In this document: piece after piece, positions 26,014 through 33,399 of the stretch
Position numbering within the stretch: the stretch's first letter is position 1
Layout: every line of letters begins with the position of its first letter
DNA from: an uncultured Synechococcus sp.
GTDB taxonomy: Bacteria; Cyanobacteriota; Cyanobacteriia; PCC-6307; Cyanobiaceae
NCBI GenBank assembly: GCA_913050565.1
Contig: CAJWZW010000008.1
Location: 1-33,937, forward strand
Length of the DNA stretch: 33,937 bases
Direction of reading: 5' to 3'
The notes under the pieces: model-generated
What the model was told of the DNA's origin: nothing
What the model saw: the letters and a program-made list of their open reading frames with translations, nothing else
Databases searched by the model: none
Program-made: the position numbers and the translations under genes

Positions 26014-26781
26014 TCAACCTGCTGGACGTTGTCTCTGAGCCTGAAGTCCCCAGTGGGCCCCAACGGCATCGATCAATGGATCCTTCACCGCCTCAGGTCC
26101 CCTCCGAAGCCGAGCTTCATGCAGCAACACCTGCATGTCGTCGGCCCGTCCCTGCTCCCCGCGCAACATGGCAAGGGCCAGAACGGGTCGGGCATCACTT
26201 GTTGATTCCCCTGCCAGTTGCCGGTAGAGGGCTGTCGCTCGGTCGTGGTGGCCCTGATGCAATTCCAGATCCGCCATCAGGAGCCCAACGGAGGTCCGTT
26301 GGGCCACCGGTAAAGCCTGGAACGTTTGCTGAAGCCAACCTCTGGCCTCGCTGACTCGGCCCCGCTGGAGGTCCACCAGAACCCGCATCTGCATGGCTTC
26401 GGAATGGTTCGGTTGCAGGGCCAGCACCTGATCAAGATCCTTCATCGCCCTTTCAGGCGAACCGGTGCGGCGATGCAAGTCGGCCATCAGCAACATCAGA
26501 GAAATCTGATGGGGGTGTTGTTCCAGCAGAGGGGCCAGGACCAGTTGAGCCTCTTCAAGCCGTCCAAGATCAAGAAGGTGTCCCAGCAGCCATTGCTGAT
26601 CTCGGCTCGGAAGTTCGCCGCTGCGCATCTGGTCGAGAAGCTCGCTGACCTGCGGATCGGAGTCGATCCCGCTGTCCGTCTGCGCACGCATCGACGCCAG
26701 TGAGCTCGAAGCCAGCCAGCCTGCAACGGCTGCCGAAACCAGTGCCGCACTCAACAGCAGCTTTCGGCCTGGCAGGGGCAT
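26014..26781 (-). CDS. Membrane-anchored TPR-repeat protein
   Basis: A 255-residue protein starting MPLPGRKLLLSAALVSAAVA, one N-terminal membrane anchor, followed by helical repeats. The TPR-like units include WLLGHLLDLGRLEEAQLVLA, LMLLMADLHRRTGSPERAMK, ALQPNHSEAMQMRVLVDLQR and VGLLMADLELHQGHHDRATA, covering about residues 60-210. Such proteins scaffold complexes; the partner is not evident. ATG 26781 is chosen over the open frame to 26871. It is divergent from the larC operon and convergent with the small exported protein gene. Confidence 0.85.
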   Translation of the reverse strand: MPLPGRKLLLSAALVSAAVAGWLASSSLASMRAQTDSGIDSDPQVSELLDQMRSGELPSRDQQWLLGHLLDLGRLEEAQLVLAPLLEQHPHQISLMLLMADLHRRTGSPERAMKDLDQVLALQPNHSEAMQMRVLVDLQRGRVSEARGWLQQTFQALPVAQRTSVGLLMADLELHQGHHDRATALYRQLAGESTSDARPVLALAMLRGEQGRADDMQVLLHEARLRRGPEAVKDPLIDAVGAHWGLQAQRQRPAG

Positions 26782-26874
26782 GCGCTCTTCGTTTCTCGAT
26801 TCATTGTGAGAAGCAATGACTGCGCTGGCTACAGTCGTTAGGAGGGCTTTTGATTTGCCCGGACTTCTCATTCA

Positions 26875-27495
26875 ATGCGCAACCACCCGATTTCCCCGGT
26901 CACAGAACCCTTGCAGTACCGGGCCATTGGTGTGGTGCGTGGCATCTACAAACCGACTGAGCCCGAGCAGCTCACCCGTGGTGTTGTGGTGGATGCGGAC
27001 GGCCATGAGATCGAGGCGGTCGTGCTGGGCCGTGTCCTGACTCTGATGCGGCGTCACCTGGCCATGGATGAGCCTCACCTTTGGGTCACGTATCCACGAT
27101 GTCGTGAAAGCGACCATCTGCACCTGCAAATCGCAGGTGTCTGGGAGCCCAGCACCTTGTCTCCTGGTCAGGATGATGCGGAAGACACCCTGCCTGAGGG
27201 TGATGACTTCTTCTCCATTCGTGGTGAGCTGATTTTCACCAAGCCTGAAAGCGGGGAACTGGTCGTCAAAGTCCGCCAGCAACCGCGGTCGGATGGCCAG
27301 AGACCTCTGCCCTTCAAATTGCAGATCAAGGGGGAACTTCCACTGGAGAATCTGCGTCATTTCGTCAGCCTCGACGTCCGTCGTTCCGGTCAGCAGCTCC
27401 ACATGGAATCCCATGAGGTGATCGCGCCGATGCCGACCCGGGGCGGCAAGTCGAAGAGTGGTCGTGGGCGTGCACCCGCCGGCAGTCGAAGCTGA
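26875..27495 (+). CDS. Unknown protein with basic C-terminal tail
   Basis: A 206-residue protein, first gene of a four-gene overlapping run. It reads YRAIGVVRGIYKPTEPEQLT, then RGVVVDADGHEIEAVVLGRV, and FFSIRGELIFTKPESGELVV followed by KVRQQPRSDGQRPLPFKLQI. The N-terminal two-thirds look like mixed beta barrels and the last 20 residues are rich in Arg, Lys, Gly and Ser (GGKSKSGRGRAP), so nucleic-acid binding is possible. It is cytosolic: no signal or membrane span. I believe similar proteins are common in cyanobacteria but cannot name a function. Its stop overlaps the next start as TGATG. Confidence 0.75.
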   Translation: MRNHPISPVTEPLQYRAIGVVRGIYKPTEPEQLTRGVVVDADGHEIEAVVLGRVLTLMRRHLAMDEPHLWVTYPRCRESDHLHLQIAGVWEPSTLSPGQDDAEDTLPEGDDFFSIRGELIFTKPESGELVVKVRQQPRSDGQRPLPFKLQIKGELPLENLRHFVSLDVRRSGQQLHMESHEVIAPMPTRGGKSKSGRGRAPAGSRS

Positions 27496-28142
27496 TGGCA
27501 GATCCGGGAGAGGGTTCAACAGGTGCTCTTCGCGCTGGCCTCGTTGTGGCGGGGATCACGGCCCTTGGGGCGTTCGGACCTGTGTTGGGGCTCTCAGCCG
27601 CCTGGATCGTTGTGGTTGTTGGTGGAGGGTTGGTCCTGTTGAGCGTTGATGCCGCCACGTGGCAGGGCATGGGTGGTCATGTGATGGCGGAAGCCCTCCC
27701 TGGTGGTGTGAATCGCTTGCGTCGCATCGCTGTTCATGAGGCTGGTCACGTGTTGATCGCAGAGCAGGAGAAACTGCCTGTCGAGCGTGTGATGGTGGGG
27801 ACGCTCGCCTGCCTCAAGGCCGGTCTGCGCAGCAGCGGTGCCACGGAATTCACCGTGCCCGAAAGCGTCCGCATGCCCCTGGAGGATCTGCGCCGTTGGA
27901 GCCGTGTTCTCCAGGCGGGTATCGCCGCGGAGACGGTCGTGTTCGGACAGGCCCGTGGCGGAGCTGACGACAGGGCCATGCTCGGTCAGCTCTGGGGACT
28001 GTCAGGACATGACGTTCAGACGGCTCAGCGGGAGCAAAGGCGTGCCCGCCGTGAGATCGAGCAGGCCTTGCGTCAGGGCCGAGCGGTTCTTGATGAGCGT
28101 GCACAGGCGTTGCTGACGGAGGCCCCGCGCCTGGGGCGATGA
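27495..28142 (+). CDS. Membrane protein with FtsH-type (M41-like) HEAGH site, no AAA domain
   Basis: A 215-residue protein with two N-terminal membrane spans (about 13-33 and 35-51) followed by RIAVHEAGHVLIAEQEKLPV, where H81, E82 and H85 form the zinc motif. Further on, AGIAAETVVFGQARGGADDR parallels the FtsH segment AAE-IFG-TGASND, with D158 or D159 as the likely third ligand. The AAA ATPase domain of FtsH is absent. Either a stand-alone membrane protease or a non-catalytic relative is possible. It overlaps the previous gene by one base and larC by four (ATGA). Confidence 0.82.
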   Translation: MADPGEGSTGALRAGLVVAGITALGAFGPVLGLSAAWIVVVVGGGLVLLSVDAATWQGMGGHVMAEALPGGVNRLRRIAVHEAGHVLIAEQEKLPVERVMVGTLACLKAGLRSSGATEFTVPESVRMPLEDLRRWSRVLQAGIAAETVVFGQARGGADDRAMLGQLWGLSGHDVQTAQREQRRARREIEQALRQGRAVLDERAQALLTEAPRLGR

Positions 28143-29368
28143 GATCAGCGCCGGTCTCGTCTCTGCATATCGACTGTCCGACGGGTCTGGCCGGAGACAT
28201 GCTTCTGGCCGCGCTGCTCGATCTCGGCGTGCCGATGGACGTGGTCGAGCAGCCGCTTCATCAGCTCGGGCTCAGTGAGTTGGTTCGCCTTGATATCCGG
28301 GAAGATCGCAGTGAAGGACTGCGTGGGCGCCGGCTGCATGTGCAGGGGCTCGAGCAAGATCCTCCCCACCGTCGGTGGACTGAAATCCGCGGGAGGATTA
28401 CCGATGCTGCCTTGAATTCCCATCTCAAGGACAGAGTCCTTGCCGTGTTCTCGGCCCTGGCGGAAGCCGAAGCGCATGTGCATGGCTGCAGTGCTGAAAC
28501 CGTGCACTTCCATGAAGTCGGGGCCGTTGATGCCCTGGTGGACATCGTGGGTGTCTGCGCGGCCGTCACCCATCTCTCCCCGGAGCACCTGTCCTGTGAT
28601 CCACCCCCAGCAGGTCATGGGAGCGTGAACACCGCCCATGGAGTGTTGCCTGTTCCCGCACCAGCTGTTCTGGAGCTGGCCAGAGCCCATGGGGTCCCGT
28701 TGCGCCAGGATCCATCCCTTCCGCAGGGAGAGCTCACCACTCCCACTGGATTGGCGCTCGTGGCTGTGTTGGCGGATGGTTTCAGTCCGCCAACACTGTT
28801 CCAGCCAGCCGCAATCGGGATCGGCCTTGGTCACCGCCAGCTGGACCGCCCCAATCTCGTGCGTCTGTGCCTCAGCCAAAACGACACTCGGAACGCCGCG
28901 GTCGCCCCGCGCTGGCAAGCGCTTGTGGTGCAGGAGGCATGGATCGACGATGCCTCGGCAGAAGATGTGGCTCTGCTGGTGGATCAGCTGCGCGCAGGTG
29001 GGGCGGTGGATGTGGCCTGTCACCCCCTCCAGATGAAAAAGGGTCGCTTGGGTCTGGCGGTCACGGCTCTTGTCGCCCCTGAACTTGCCGACTCTCTGCG
29101 CGGCATCTGGTGGGCCGCGGGTTCCAGCATCGGTCTTCGCGAGCGCCACCAGGGGCGCTGGCTTCTGCCGCGCCGCAGTGGCCTGTTGCGGACGCCATGG
29201 GGGCAGGTTCGTGCCAAGCAGGTGCAGAAGCCTGATGGTCAGGTCAGCGTGAAACCCGAGGCCGACGACCTTCAAAGCCTCAGCGAGGCCAGTGGCTGTG
29301 CTGTGGATGAATTGCGGCGGGCCGCGGCGGCCGCGGAGTTTGAAACATCAGAGGCCTGGAGCTGGTGA
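28139..29368 (+). CDS. larC: Nickel-pincer cofactor insertase LarC
   Basis: LarC inserts nickel into the pyridinium-dithio cofactor in a CTP-dependent reaction in lactobacilli (DUF111 family). The 409-residue protein has LHIDCPTGLAGDMLLAALLD at the start, ETVHFHEVGAVDALVDIVGV, GVLPVPAPAVLELARAHGVP, GELTTPTGLALVAVLADG and a C-terminal LarC2 part (EDVALLVDQLRAGGAVDVAC). It is one continuous frame; the programmed frameshift known in Lactobacillus is not needed. LarB and LarE are not in the window. It overlaps both neighbours (ATGA and TGATG). The cofactor's client in this organism is unknown. Confidence 0.9.
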   Translation: MRSAPVSSLHIDCPTGLAGDMLLAALLDLGVPMDVVEQPLHQLGLSELVRLDIREDRSEGLRGRRLHVQGLEQDPPHRRWTEIRGRITDAALNSHLKDRVLAVFSALAEAEAHVHGCSAETVHFHEVGAVDALVDIVGVCAAVTHLSPEHLSCDPPPAGHGSVNTAHGVLPVPAPAVLELARAHGVPLRQDPSLPQGELTTPTGLALVAVLADGFSPPTLFQPAAIGIGLGHRQLDRPNLVRLCLSQNDTRNAAVAPRWQALVVQEAWIDDASAEDVALLVDQLRAGGAVDVACHPLQMKKGRLGLAVTALVAPELADSLRGIWWAAGSSIGLRERHQGRWLLPRRSGLLRTPWGQVRAKQVQKPDGQVSVKPEADDLQSLSEASGCAVDELRRAAAAAEFETSEAWSW

Positions 29369-30294
29369 TGCCCCGGCTGCCCAAGCCCAAGCACTTGATC
29401 ACGCTTGCCAGCCTGAGCTTCATCGGCGTTGCGCTTGCCCAGCAGGGTGAGCAGCTGCGCCGGATTCATCTGGATGCCATCGGTTGGTGCTGGTTGTTCC
29501 TCGGCCTGCTTCTGACGGGGGCCAGCATCCTGATCAATGCACTGGCGTGGAGGCAGCTGCTGCGTTGGTTGGGCCACCGGCCCGAGGGGATTGCTGTTGT
29601 GGCCTTGTTTGTGCGGAGCAATCTGCTCAAATACCTCCCCGGTGGCATCTGGCATCTGGTGGAACGGGTGCGTGTGTTGCGTCCGCAGATCGATGCCGGG
29701 CCTGCCCTTGCTGGAGTGATCCTGGATCCGCTCTTGATCGTGGCAGCCGCATCACTCCTGCTGCTGTTCGGTGGCTGGCAAAACGGTCTGCTGCTGCTGG
29801 CCCCTGTTCCGCTGGTGCTTCTGATGTTGTCCCGTTTCCGGGAACCGATTCTGCTGCGGCTGGAGAAGGCCAAGGCCAGACAGCTGGAGGATGCTGGATC
29901 AGGTCCTCTCCAGCTTTCAGGTTCATCGCGTGACGGCGGCCCCTGGGGACCGCTGTTGATCGAGCTTGGTTTCGTCCTGGTCCGCTTCAGCGGCTTCGCC
30001 TGTTGCCTGATGGCTTTCGGCATGGTTTCTCCGCCCCTGAACATCTGGCTTGCTGCTTTTTCGATGGCCTATGCCGCAGGGCTGGTTGTTCCCGGCGCTC
30101 CAGGCGGTCTCGGTGTGTTCGAAGCGACTCTTCTGCTGCGTCTGGGGGAGGGAGTGGCAGAGGCACCTCTGCTTGCAGTTGTGCTCAGTTACAGGCTGAT
30201 CTCCACTGCTGCGGATGTCCTGCTGGCTGCGGGTGTCTCACTGCAGAACCGGTTGAGCCCGGACCTGCGATTCCGAGACTCCTCAGTCGACTGA
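29368..30294 (+). CDS. UPF0104/LPG-synthase-type transmembrane protein
   Basis: A 308-residue membrane protein with about eight hydrophobic spans. The pattern FVRSNLLKYLPGGIWHLVER, then AAGLVVPGAPGGLGVFEATL and LLLRLGEGVAEAPLLAVVLS matches the membrane domain related to lysylphosphatidylglycerol synthase (UPF0104), often seen as a flippase-like or lipid-handling protein. There is no aminoacyl-transfer domain. The start is ATG 29368, sharing a base with the larC stop. It is the last gene in the operon and converges on the ABC permease gene, 19 bases away. Confidence 0.85.
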   Translation: MPRLPKPKHLITLASLSFIGVALAQQGEQLRRIHLDAIGWCWLFLGLLLTGASILINALAWRQLLRWLGHRPEGIAVVALFVRSNLLKYLPGGIWHLVERVRVLRPQIDAGPALAGVILDPLLIVAAASLLLLFGGWQNGLLLLAPVPLVLLMLSRFREPILLRLEKAKARQLEDAGSGPLQLSGSSRDGGPWGPLLIELGFVLVRFSGFACCLMAFGMVSPPLNIWLAAFSMAYAAGLVVPGAPGGLGVFEATLLLRLGEGVAEAPLLAVVLSYRLISTAADVLLAAGVSLQNRLSPDLRFRDSSVD

Positions 30295-30313: not shown

Positions 30314-31891
30314 TCATCGCTTTTGGGCAGGAGGCTCGAGTGTCGGCACAAGAGCCAGCGATGCCACCAGCCCCAGCAAGAGAATCATCAGAGCCGGCAG
30401 CATTGCTTCGGCCAGGCGTTCGTCGCCTGCGTACTGGTACACCCGCACCGAAAGGGTGTCGAAGTCGAAGGGCCGAAGCGCGAAGGTCAGCGGCAGCTCT
30501 TTGACTGTGTCCACAAAAACCAGCAGTAATCCCACCGTGATTGGCCCTCGCAGAAGTGGCAGGTGAACGCTTCTGAGGACCCGTGGCCACTGAAAGCCGA
30601 GTCCAGTCGCTGCTTCATCCAGGCTTGGGCTGATGCGCTCCAGGGCGGCATCAAGCCCTCCTTTGGCAACGGCGAGGAAGCGGTCGCTGTAGCCCCAGAG
30701 GAGCAGCACAACGGGAGCCAGCTGCCATGGCCCCCCAGTGAGCAGAAGGGCCAGAGCCAGCACAGTGCCTGGAATGGCATAGCCCGTGCCGGCAAGGAAG
30801 GTGAGGCTCTGGAGCCAGCGTGCGTTGCTCCAGCGCTTGGCGATGGCCAGAACCAACGCAACTCCAACAGCAAGTACAGCAGCGCTCAGGCCGAGGAGGA
30901 GGCTGCGGAGGCTCAGATTGAAAAGATCGTCGTTGAAACCGCTTCCCAGTTGATCCAGGTTGGTGACCATCCACAGAAGCGGGGTCCCCAGGGTGAACAG
31001 AGGGGGCAGCACTGCCAGCAATTGCGCAGTGAGGGCCCTGATGCCATGCAGTTGCCAGGTGGTTGCTTCAACGCCTGCGACCCCGTCGCTCCAGCGGCGA
31101 CTGCGCCGGCGCAGAATCCGTTCCGTCATCACCAGGGCCAGAACGATGACCAGCGTGATCAGAGCCAGGCCGATTGCTCCGGTGGGATTACCCTCCGCCT
31201 GCCAGGTCTCCAGGATTCCGGCTGACAGGCTCGGAATGCCCAGCAATTGCACGGCACCGAGCTCGTTGATGGTCTCCATCCCCATCAGCGCCACCCCAGC
31301 ACCGATCGCGGGAGCTGCAATGGGAAGTGCGACACGCCTGAAGGATGCCCATGGGCCCACCCCCAGGCTTCGACAGGCTTCCAGCTGTCGACGACTGCCA
31401 ACGGAAAAGCTCTCTGTTGTCAGCAGGAAGACGTACGGATAGGTCGTCAGCGCCATCACGACGATGCCCCATCCCATGCCGTAGACGCGCCAACCTTCCC
31501 GGGTCGACAGATCCACCAGAGTGGCGGAGAGAAGATAGGCAGGGGTGGCCAGAGGGATCAGTTGGGCGATGCGCAGCCATCGGCGACCTGGAAAGCGGCA
31601 GTTGGACAGCAGCCAACCGTTGGTCGCCCCCAGGATGGTTCCGATGAATGCGGTCCCCAGCAGCAACTCAATGGTGCCCTTGACCATCAGGGGGCCATCC
31701 GAGCTGAGGCCCGAGCCTTCCTGATTGATCGACCCCGCCATTTCGATGATCAGCGTGATCAGGGGCCAGATCGCCAGCAAGGCGATCAATGCCGCGCCAA
31801 TCACCAGAACGGAACGGCTGATGTTGGAGCGCCATTCTCCGAGAAGTGATCCGAATGATCCTCGCGATCTCTCCTGCATCGCTGCTTTCAT
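30314..31891 (-). CDS. futB: Ferric-iron-type ABC transporter permease (FbpB/FutB-like)
   Basis: A double permease of about 525 residues, with two copies of the inner-membrane domain, typical of iron(III) uptake systems. The EAA-like loops are LEACRSLGVGPWASFRRVAL, followed by PIAAPAIGAG, and DEAATGLGFQWPRVLRSVHL, followed by PLLRGPITVG. Eleven or twelve membrane spans can be seen. I take ATG 31891 (MKAAMQERSRG) as the start; ATG 31879 is close and the open frame extends to 31951. The ATPase gene is divergent about 0.45 kb away. No substrate-binding protein (FutA) is in the window. Iron is the family-level guess; a related substrate is possible. Confidence 0.87.
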   Translation of the reverse strand: MKAAMQERSRGSFGSLLGEWRSNISRSVLVIGAALIALLAIWPLITLIIEMAGSINQEGSGLSSDGPLMVKGTIELLLGTAFIGTILGATNGWLLSNCRFPGRRWLRIAQLIPLATPAYLLSATLVDLSTREGWRVYGMGWGIVVMALTTYPYVFLLTTESFSVGSRRQLEACRSLGVGPWASFRRVALPIAAPAIGAGVALMGMETINELGAVQLLGIPSLSAGILETWQAEGNPTGAIGLALITLVIVLALVMTERILRRRSRRWSDGVAGVEATTWQLHGIRALTAQLLAVLPPLFTLGTPLLWMVTNLDQLGSGFNDDLFNLSLRSLLLGLSAAVLAVGVALVLAIAKRWSNARWLQSLTFLAGTGYAIPGTVLALALLLTGGPWQLAPVVLLLWGYSDRFLAVAKGGLDAALERISPSLDEAATGLGFQWPRVLRSVHLPLLRGPITVGLLLVFVDTVKELPLTFALRPFDFDTLSVRVYQYAGDERLAEAMLPALMILLLGLVASLALVPTLEPPAQKR

Positions 31892-32133
31892 CTGAAGCTC
31901 GATGGCAGTCTGGCAGCGTCTTGTTGTTTGAAAGCCAGATATTGATCCCAACCCTGAGGAGGGGTTGCGAGGCTGATCTGTCCGATTCGTTTTTCTCAGT
32001 GCGGCTCAATCGCTGGAGTTGAAAGCGATTGATTCCCGCGATTGTGTGATCTGCGATGTTGCTGAGTTGTTCCAGACACAGTGGTTTCCCGGGCTGGAGC
32101 GGAGGCTGAACTGCACTGGCACTTGTTGATGAG
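31892..32133. other. First part of the intergenic region between the ABC permease and ATPase genes
   Basis: This stretch and the ATPase lead-in add up to about 0.43 kb without a long gene. It contains the inverted repeat at 32006-32032 and, further right, a 34-residue ORF (32134-32238) and an AT-rich block (32272-32295, CGTTCAAATCATTTATTACC then TTTA). Part of the block, AATCATT, recalls half of a Fur box, but the match is weak. Confidence 0.5.
32006..32032. promoter_or_regulatory. Perfect 9-base inverted repeat in the ABC divergent region
   Basis: TCAATCGCT (32006-32014) and AGCGATTGA (32024-32032) are perfect inverted copies with a nine-base spacer, GGAGTTGAA. This lies about 115 bases upstream of the permease start and 0.3 kb upstream of the ATPase start. 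The arms and centre-to-centre distance suit a dimeric regulator. An RNA hairpin in a leader is the alternative. Confidence 0.5.
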
Positions 32134-32322: not shown

Positions 32323-33399
32323 GTGTTGCGCATCGCAAATCCGCCCATGGGGTCAACCGTTGCTCTGAATGGTGTGTGGCACCGATACAGCAACTCCGCT
32401 GAGGCCTGGACGCTTCGCGGGGTTGATCTGGACGTTGCTCCCGGAGAGCTGGTTGGCTTGCTCGGGCCCTCAGGTTGTGGAAAAACAACACTGCTTCGCC
32501 TGATTGCAGGCTTTGAGCGGCCTGACCGTGGCTCTCTTCGGCTTGGGCAACAGCTGGTGGCGGGCGATGGTGCCTGGTTGGCGCCGGAGCGACGCGGAGT
32601 CGGCATGGTCTTCCAGGATTACGCCCTTTTCCCGCATCTGAATGCCTGGAGGAATGCCCGATTCGGTCTCGCTCGGGGCAAGGGCGATGAGCGTGTGGCC
32701 TGGTTGTTTTCACTCCTGGGACTGGAGGGTCTGGAACAGCGTTATCCCCACCAGCTGTCGGGTGGACAACGCCAACGTCTGGCGATGGCGCGGGCTCTGG
32801 CTCCATCGCCGAGGGTCGTTCTTCTCGACGAGCCCTTTTCAAGTCTTGATGTGGAGGTTCGTCTCCGTCTGCGCAGTGAACTCTCCTCCGTTCTTGAGGC
32901 CTGCGACGCAAGTGGAGTGATCGTCACCCATGATCCCGACGAGGCTCTGGCGATCTGTGATCGGGTCGCTGTGATGCGCGATGGAGTGCTGCATCAGTGT
33001 GCGACGCCTCAGGAGATTGTTCGAACGCCGGCAACACCCTTCGTCGGTTCGTTCGTTCTTCAGCGCAACGTCATCCCGGCTCAATCGACCCGCCCCGACC
33101 AGTGGTCATGTCCCCTGGGAGATTTGAGTCAACAGCACATCCGGATGGCGGCAGCGCCCACGACTCAGGAGGAGTGCTGCGTTCTGGTTGAGTCGAAGGA
33201 TATTGAGATTGATGCGGATGATCGGGGAGATGCAGCCATCGTTGGGCGTGAATTCCTCGGTGACCTCTGGGAATATCGCGTGCGGATGGGTGAAATGGTT
33301 GTCCGGGCAACCTGCGGTGTTGAGAAGGACTATCCGCCTCAGATGCCCTGCAGCCTGAGAATCAAGGAAGGTGCAGCTGTGGATCTGATGACCAGCTGA
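32323..33399 (+). CDS. futC: Ferric-iron-type ABC transporter ATPase (FbpC/FutC-like)
   Basis: A 358-residue ATPase with Walker A LLGPSGCGKTTLLRLIAGFE, Q-loop VFQDYALFPHL, signature LSGGQRQRLAMARAL, Walker B VVLLDEPFSSLDVEVRLRL and H-loop VIVTHDPDEALAI. About 120 C-terminal residues form a TOBE-like domain (CVLVESKDIEIDAD and VVRATCGVEK). It would power the permease encoded divergently to the left. The start may be GTG 32323 or ATG 32347. An out-of-frame ATG at 32318 begins a 16-codon ORF overlapping it. Iron is the likeliest substrate by family; the binding protein is missing. Confidence 0.87.
   Translation: MLRIANPPMGSTVALNGVWHRYSNSAEAWTLRGVDLDVAPGELVGLLGPSGCGKTTLLRLIAGFERPDRGSLRLGQQLVAGDGAWLAPERRGVGMVFQDYALFPHLNAWRNARFGLARGKGDERVAWLFSLLGLEGLEQRYPHQLSGGQRQRLAMARALAPSPRVVLLDEPFSSLDVEVRLRLRSELSSVLEACDASGVIVTHDPDEALAICDRVAVMRDGVLHQCATPQEIVRTPATPFVGSFVLQRNVIPAQSTRPDQWSCPLGDLSQQHIRMAAAPTTQEECCVLVESKDIEIDADDRGDAAIVGREFLGDLWEYRVRMGEMVVRATCGVEKDYPPQMPCSLRIKEGAAVDLMTS

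Follow-up and report, generated by a model that had tools for sequence, protein, structure and literature searches.

Do four overlapping genes around larC, the gene for a predicted nickel-insertion step in nickel-pincer nucleotide (NPN) biosynthesis, make up a single pathway in an uncultured Synechococcus sp.? The question is raised by a 33,937-nucleotide stretch of DNA (hereafter the window; positions 1 to 33,937 of contig CAJWZW010000008.1, contig 8 of the 1.78-Mb, 87%-complete assembly GCA_913050565.1), for which a first-pass annotation had proposed one unrecognised nickel or membrane-protein pathway. Our results point to another answer: the four genes probably form an operon that is translationally coupled and confined to the Prochlorococcus/Synechococcus/Cyanobium family (f1), in which two old gene pairs, TPR-ORF1 and larC-ORF4, were joined, with ORF2 between them in some lineages, in a genome whose NPN route has no recognisable LarA. 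The nearest named loci, among the matches listed, belong to Synechococcus, Cyanobium and Prochlorococcus. The open reading frames (ORFs) and their junctions are as follows.

26014..26871, minus strand: gene for a tetratricopeptide repeat (TPR) protein, divergent to ORF1 and apparently its old neighbour
26875..27495, plus strand: ORF1, 206 aa, a cyanobacteria-wide protein with predicted tandem oligonucleotide/oligosaccharide-binding (OB) folds, arranged as in single-stranded DNA-binding proteins (SSB)
27493..27497, plus strand: ORF1-ORF2 stop/start overlap TGATG, reading CTGATGG
27495..28142, plus strand: ORF2, 215 aa, a putative membrane-anchored M41-like zinc protease without an AAA domain, with HEAGH at residues 81-85 and D158/D159
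28139..28142, plus strand: ORF2-larC overlap ATGA, reading CGATGAG
28139..29368, plus strand: larC (ORF3), 409 aa, a single frame encoding both LarC1 and LarC2, predicted NPN nickel-insertion step
29366..29370, plus strand: larC-ORF4 overlap TGATG, reading GGTGATGC
29368..30294, plus strand: ORF4, 308 aa, a polytopic PF03706 protein with a predicted MprF-flippase-domain fold

The four plus-strand genes and the letters of their three junctions are as the first-pass annotation had claimed. An alternative in-frame start of ORF4, GTG at 29365, would give a product of 309 aa, and the true start of the TPR gene lies probably nearer 26781, judging from the signal-like MPLPGRKLLLSAAL. A scan for promoters and terminators was uninformative: it returned no promoter-like site, and two terminator-like sites on the minus strand, the same as in shuffled sequences.

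LarC and the NPN route of the window genome

The identification of ORF3 as LarC is borne out, with scores above both curated cut-offs (LarC1, LarC2): 193.1 bits against TIGR00299 (cut-off 90) and 103.4 bits against NF052512 (cut-off 50). The product also scores 384.9 bits against PF01969 (cut-off 22.1), and residues 9-399 align with solved LarC with an E-value of 5.5e-67. The LarC of Lactiplantibacillus plantarum is of the same family, but its larC is reportedly frameshifted, whereas the window larC carries LarC1 and LarC2 in one frame and has no adjoining LarA gene, larB or larE. In genomes of family f24, outside class Cyanobacteriia, larE, larC and larB can cluster (e.g., G210:C20:7586-10678), and their LarC match ends close to position 235, in some of them with in-frame stops, the pattern to be expected if LarC1 and LarC2 are split.

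LarC was found in 70 of 81 f1 genomes, including all 50 of those at least 90% complete, and LarB and LarE scored above cut-off in 73 and 75 of the 81, respectively. The first-pass annotation had noted that larB and larE are not adjacent. This holds for the operon, yet a search of the genome finds both on other contigs: LarB at G000:C66:6090-6716 (261 bits against a cut-off of 175) and LarE at G000:C1:69388-70158 (287.3 against 150). Hence, the pathway need not be missing just because the operon lacks both genes, and the implied NPN cofactor is backed by a complete set of larB, larE and larC.

The matched stretch of this LarE has SGGVDS at 18, CFAC at 88 and QPC at 168. CXXC and a third cysteine occur in 30/30 LarE stretches, including this copy, the only one in which SGGXDS was inspected. 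In the consulted part of PMC9283937, the [4Fe-4S]-type LarE is marked by three cluster cysteines, CXXC plus a third. By its CXXC, third cysteine and SGGXDS, the LarE of the window genome is a predicted [4Fe-4S]-type enzyme.

As for LarA, the model NF033504 found none above cut-off in the 81 f1 genomes, with one weak match, and Lar_N (PF09861) found one above cut-off and one more below it, neither of them in the window's genome. The search for larA homologues recommended in the first-pass annotation thus returned none above cut-off in this 87%-complete genome, and the LarA client of the lactate racemase system was not found in it by the LarA models. A LarA hidden inside the operon was also considered and rejected, given that no operon protein matches the family. 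The sole Lar_N protein above cut-off (36.9 against 23.3 bits) is a 604-aa protein of another f1 genome, G023 (L044:40-1851, minus strand), with weak matches to malate-racemase-type LarA models; we read it as a divergent LarA-like protein. Its gene overlaps with the final part of the gene upstream, whose product we read as a SpoIIE/PP2C-like phosphatase.

Judged from gene content, the window genome has a complete NPN route without a recognisable LarA. The activity of LarB, LarE and LarC is known from the literature on Synechocystis sp. PCC 6803: in the consulted text of PMC11796402, its larB, larE and larC substitute for the L. plantarum counterparts, so that NPN is made in Escherichia coli and yields lactate racemase activity, and nickel insertion is shown for its LarC homologue. 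The same text states that the majority of cyanobacteria lack LarA and that the user of their NPN is not known. LarA-less NPN synthesis in cyanobacteria is therefore already published, and the operon is in itself no new nickel pathway. The Synechocystis system shares larB, larE and larC with the window genome, and differs in that its activity was shown in E. coli and that the neighbours of larC go untreated in the consulted text, whereas the window, known here from sequence, has larC as part of a coupled operon that also holds ORF1, ORF2 and ORF4. A term search of the available text of PMC7583248 and PMC11770544 found no mention of cyanobacteria.

Gene order within and beyond the family

Gene order was first considered in 30 f1 loci with flanks of 1.5 kb, which are the best 30 of the LarC places matched (L001 being the window itself). 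ORF4 follows LarC in 30/30 and ORF1 lies upstream in 28/30, the exceptions being a locus that starts at a contig end and one in which ORF1 possibly lies past the flank. This order is kept beyond chance. ORF2 was seen in 11 of the 30 and not in the other 19, one of which is truncated. Among 20 named f1 loci, chosen by title and rank from the best 80 named LarC loci, ORF4 is found in 19, ORF1 in 19 and ORF2 in eight, the sole ORF4 gap being a contig end. The nine Prochlorococcus loci of this set have ORF1 and larC without ORF2, with ORF4 in eight and a contig end in the ninth. According to the first-pass annotation, neighbours varying freely between strains would refute the grouping; in this synteny search ORF1 and ORF4 do not vary freely within f1, whereas ORF2 does vary.

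Outside f1, the three genes behave differently. From the phylum, 156 genomes were sampled, 69 of them in class Cyanobacteriia as counted from match rows. Searching them with E limits of 1e-10 for ORF4, 1e-30 for LarB and LarE, and 1e-3 for LarC, ORF1 and ORF2 yielded matches to LarC in 96 genomes, ORF1 in 68, ORF2 in 65, ORF4 in 61, LarB in 92 and LarE in 96. Beyond f1, none of the 61 genomes that hold both LarC and ORF1 has the two within 10 kb of each other (same contig in 30); for LarC and ORF2, one of 60 does, with about 8.4 kb between them (same contig in 28). In 27 of the 60 genomes with both LarC and ORF4, the latter comes after LarC on the same strand, no more than 2.3 kb away (6/6 in f1 and 21/54 elsewhere, in families f3, f6, f7, f8 and f20), where distances are taken from match ends, not exact intergenic gaps, and pairs on different contigs are scored as far. 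In L211 (f6) and L219 (f8), the two genes share an ATGA overlap. Because the adjacency recurs over families and includes these overlaps, larC-ORF4 is, as far as gene order can tell, an old pair, and ORF4 is the sole partner of the three kept beside larC across several families.

Two genomes, each on one contig, separate the partners further. G131 (3.8 Mb), the sole class genome without LarC, has no match to larB or ORF4 and keeps larE, ORF1 and ORF2; G222 (2.8 Mb), the sole LarC genome without ORF1, has larB, larC and larE, lacks ORF2, and retains ORF4 adjoining larC. This single apparent co-loss and single co-retention suggest that ORF4 goes with NPN and that ORF1 and ORF2 stand apart. ORF1 was rejected as an NPN partner on the pattern of these two genomes and on its lack of linkage to larC outside f1, even though bare presence would not rule it out (67 of 68 class LarC genomes have ORF1). 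ORF2 was rejected on the same two grounds, and it is missing in many f1 members. That G131 keeps LarE without a LarB or LarC match hints that LarE may have a second role in cyanobacteria.

ORF1 has a different companion. In 20 of 24 non-f1 ORF1 loci there is a common neighbour, read as a TPR protein, which in 13 of the 24 aligns with the window TPR protein, divergent in all 13; TPR-ORF1 looks like an old divergent pair. Of these 24 loci, which fall in L081-L105, 14 share a second neighbour cluster, of which one scanned member is HcyBio (PF01837, homocysteine biosynthesis).

On the larC side, a Sua5/YciO/YrdC gene is divergent to larC in 25 of 29 non-f1 cyanobacterial loci (e.g., L206:5229-5882); ORF4 neighbours larC in seven of the 29. 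L149 and L208, both of length 98667, were taken as one contig, which the 29 thus include twice. The scanned gene is above the TIGR00057 and PF01300 cut-offs, and this neighbour was not found in the window or in 50 f1 loci, 30 of which have short flanks.

The neighbourhoods of larB and larE (10 f1 and 20 non-f1 loci each) were considered as a further source of an NPN client. Neighbours are shared within f1; among the non-f1 loci, none occurs in more than 7/20 larB or 8/20 larE loci, and a client beside either gene was rejected for lack of a broadly kept neighbour outside f1. In the f1 larE loci L241-L250, a divergent CobO-like gene adjoins larE in nine of ten (in L250 it sits three genes away), and MoeB/ThiF-like genes (in nine) and JAB-like genes (in seven), names read from sequence, lie near larE; a sulfur-transfer link is possible.

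Predicted proteins encoded beside larC

ORF4 is a UPF0104-type membrane protein as first described, scoring 44.7 bits against PF03706 (cut-off 33.4). Its model (pLDDT 87, from 19 sequences; Foldseek E-value of 4e-5) resembles the MprF flippase domain 6lvf with Z 22.6 over 267 residues, the next unlike row being 4.8, and is consistent with an MprF-flippase-domain fold. The VIA-align lists for ORF1 and ORF4 contain no other folds, which we did not take as proof. ORF4 differs from MprF in having no synthase domain, in carrying a KYxPG...H motif and in frequently adjoining larC in cyanobacteria. The C-terminal lysyl-phosphatidylglycerol synthase domain of full MprF was not found, since the NF033480 match covers 35-296 of 841 positions with 40.8 against 600 bits. 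The lysine of KYxPG is invariant in 33/33 aligned copies, including the outgroup, and a histidine eight residues later is present in all 32 class Cyanobacteriia copies, larC-adjacent or not, with asparagine in the single outgroup copy. In the consulted part of PMC12611868, NPN is joined to a lysine of LarA via a thioamide, and a histidine completes the nickel site. The pattern in ORF4 would fit an NPN site and proves nothing. A search of listed titles and abstracts, mostly from outside subscription journals, found none tying larC to a PF03706 protein or naming a cyanobacterial NPN client.

Beyond ORF4, the window encodes a two-domain ATP-binding cassette (ABC) permease (30314-31951, minus strand) and an ABC ATPase (32323-33399, plus strand); in 11 of the 20 named f1 loci, the ABC permease gene lies next to ORF4 and runs convergently to it.

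ORF1 had been described as a basic-tailed protein of no known family. It has no Pfam or NCBIfam match above cut-off, including single-strand-binding families, and its Gly/Arg/Lys tail is present; the tail is, however, not conserved among relatives. Its model (pLDDT 89, from 29 sequences; Foldseek E-value of 1.3e-4) aligns with Deinococcus-Thermus SSB with Z of about 12 over 147-159 residues (12.1 over 147 for 2fxq). In these proteins (2fxq, 3udg) two OB folds are similarly arranged, although ORF1 shares only about 10% identity with them and has no family match, and the editosome protein 4dni comes close to them at Z 11.1, with the remaining OB-fold chains at 7.9 or below. The model suggests that ORF1 is two OB folds in tandem, and that it may bind nucleic acids.

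The description of ORF2 as a membrane HEAGH protein without the AAA domain agrees with our results. Hydrophobic N-terminal segments span residues 14-56, and HEAGH and D158/D159 are invariant in 11/11 aligned rows; the third zinc ligand of M41 proteases is an aspartate. Against Pfam M41, ORF2 scores 20.5 bits (E-value of 4.7e-4), under the cut-off of 29.9, and a non-f1 homologue, L122, scores 21.4 bits. Pfam and NCBIfam scans of its 215 aa gave no AAA ATPase match, and ORF2 is not FtsH proper. With FtsH/M41 and VIRESCENT3 (VIR3) of Arabidopsis it shares a membrane location and HEAGH, VIR3 being, in the consulted text of PMC9166295, a plastid membrane protein that likewise has no ATP-binding domain and requires the motif for function. 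The likeness to VIR3 is one of description, and ORF2 stays below the M41 cut-off.

Competing readings of the operon

According to the reading we prefer, two older cyanobacterial units, divergent TPR-ORF1 and larC-ORF4, would have been joined in f1, in some lineages with ORF2 lying in between, and the four genes would be co-transcribed and translationally coupled. The earlier NPN steps would fall to LarB and a [4Fe-4S]-type LarE, whose genes lie on other contigs of the genome, and LarC would insert nickel into pyridinium-3,5-bisthiocarboxylic acid mononucleotide (P2TMN) in a CTP-dependent final step. NPN would then pass to a protein not recognisable as LarA, whereas ORF1 and ORF2 would do other work and have expression alone in common with larC. 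Gene content, order and distribution, and the presence or absence of lar genes, are read from the sequence; from these we infer co-transcription, the activity of these proteins and the role of ORF4. That ORF4 acts after LarC or jointly with it, and is made with it because the cofactor is used at or near the membrane, is a tentative part of this reading, drawn from linkage, which we put at somewhat less than an even chance.

Several observations weigh against this reading. The operon is deduced from gene arrangement. In 33 of the 60 phylum-sample genomes with both genes, ORF4 lies elsewhere than just downstream of LarC (in 32 it is distant or on a different contig, in one it is close by in the other orientation), and at the E limit of 1e-10 ORF4 is missing from eight of the 68 LarC genomes of the class, all eight having ORF1. 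Bare presence in those 68 genomes (ORF1 67, ORF2 62, ORF4 60) does not favour ORF4, as near-universal genes are indistinguishable in this way. ORF4 was found in the flanks (up to 6 kb, shorter at contig ends) of none of 60 named non-f1 LarC loci (L146-L205, among the best 80 listed), nine of which are cyanobacterial by title. Linkage of genes can, moreover, outlast any shared function. A LarA could sit in the gap of the 87%-complete genome, and very remote LarA relatives would escape the LarA models.

Three other readings were weighed. That all four proteins serve one nickel or membrane-protein pathway, as first proposed, is favoured by the overlapping junctions, the order of ORF1 and ORF4 kept in f1, and the presence of ORF1 in nearly every class LarC genome; being class-wide, however, ORF1 says little by its presence. 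The proposal is further contradicted by the 19 f1 loci in which ORF2 was not seen, by the lack of ORF1 and ORF2 beside larC outside f1, and by their separation from larB and larC in G131 and G222, and we consider a single pathway highly improbable. It is also conceivable that larC and ORF4 stay linked by an accident of inheritance or for reasons of expression, and that ORF4 is a plain lipid flippase with no relation to NPN. The 32 distant or other-contig cases and the eight LarC genomes without ORF4 fit such an accident, as does the Sua5/YciO/YrdC gene, a functionally unexplained neighbour that is commoner beside larC than ORF4 in the 29 non-f1 loci (25 against seven, two loci being the same contig). 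On the other hand, all 27 cases within 2.3 kb have ORF4 downstream on the same strand, the close pairing also holds in a genome of 2.8 Mb, a congener of G218 (4.8 Mb), and ORF1 and ORF2 have no such linkage outside f1. Accidental linkage could well be the case, at slightly under even chances.

A more specific claim is that ORF4 carries or depends on NPN as a non-LarA client, with the KYxPG lysine forming the thioamide and the nearby histidine completing nickel coordination, as in LarA (PMC12611868, as consulted). The linkage over six families, with ATGA overlaps also in L211 and L219, agrees with it, as do the loss of ORF4 with larB and larC in G131, its retention beside larC in G222, and the conserved lysine (33/33) and histidine (32/32 in the class, asparagine in the outgroup copy). 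However, the eight LarC genomes without ORF4 mean that it would not be the sole client, the outgroup copy has the lysine too, along with a good part of the motif, the fold predicted for ORF4 belongs to a lipid flippase domain, and the co-loss is a single apparent one. We regard such a client role as improbable.

In the f1-specific operon that we prefer, what is new is the composition of the operon and the larC-ORF4 lead, NPN synthesis without LarA being known already. The streamlined family appears to have assembled a tight operon out of unrelated old parts, which also cautions that overlapping genes alone are poor ground for inferring pathways. The evidence from gene order and co-loss makes ORF1 and ORF2 unlikely users of NPN. 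Given that cyanobacterial NPN has no known user in the consulted text of PMC11796402, ORF4 is the first candidate for testing, because its gene order is kept over several families and there is one apparent co-loss. If ORF4 did carry or use NPN, it would be the first non-LarA protein to do so, and in cyanobacteria a membrane lipid or lipid-linked substrate would undergo nickel-hydride chemistry.

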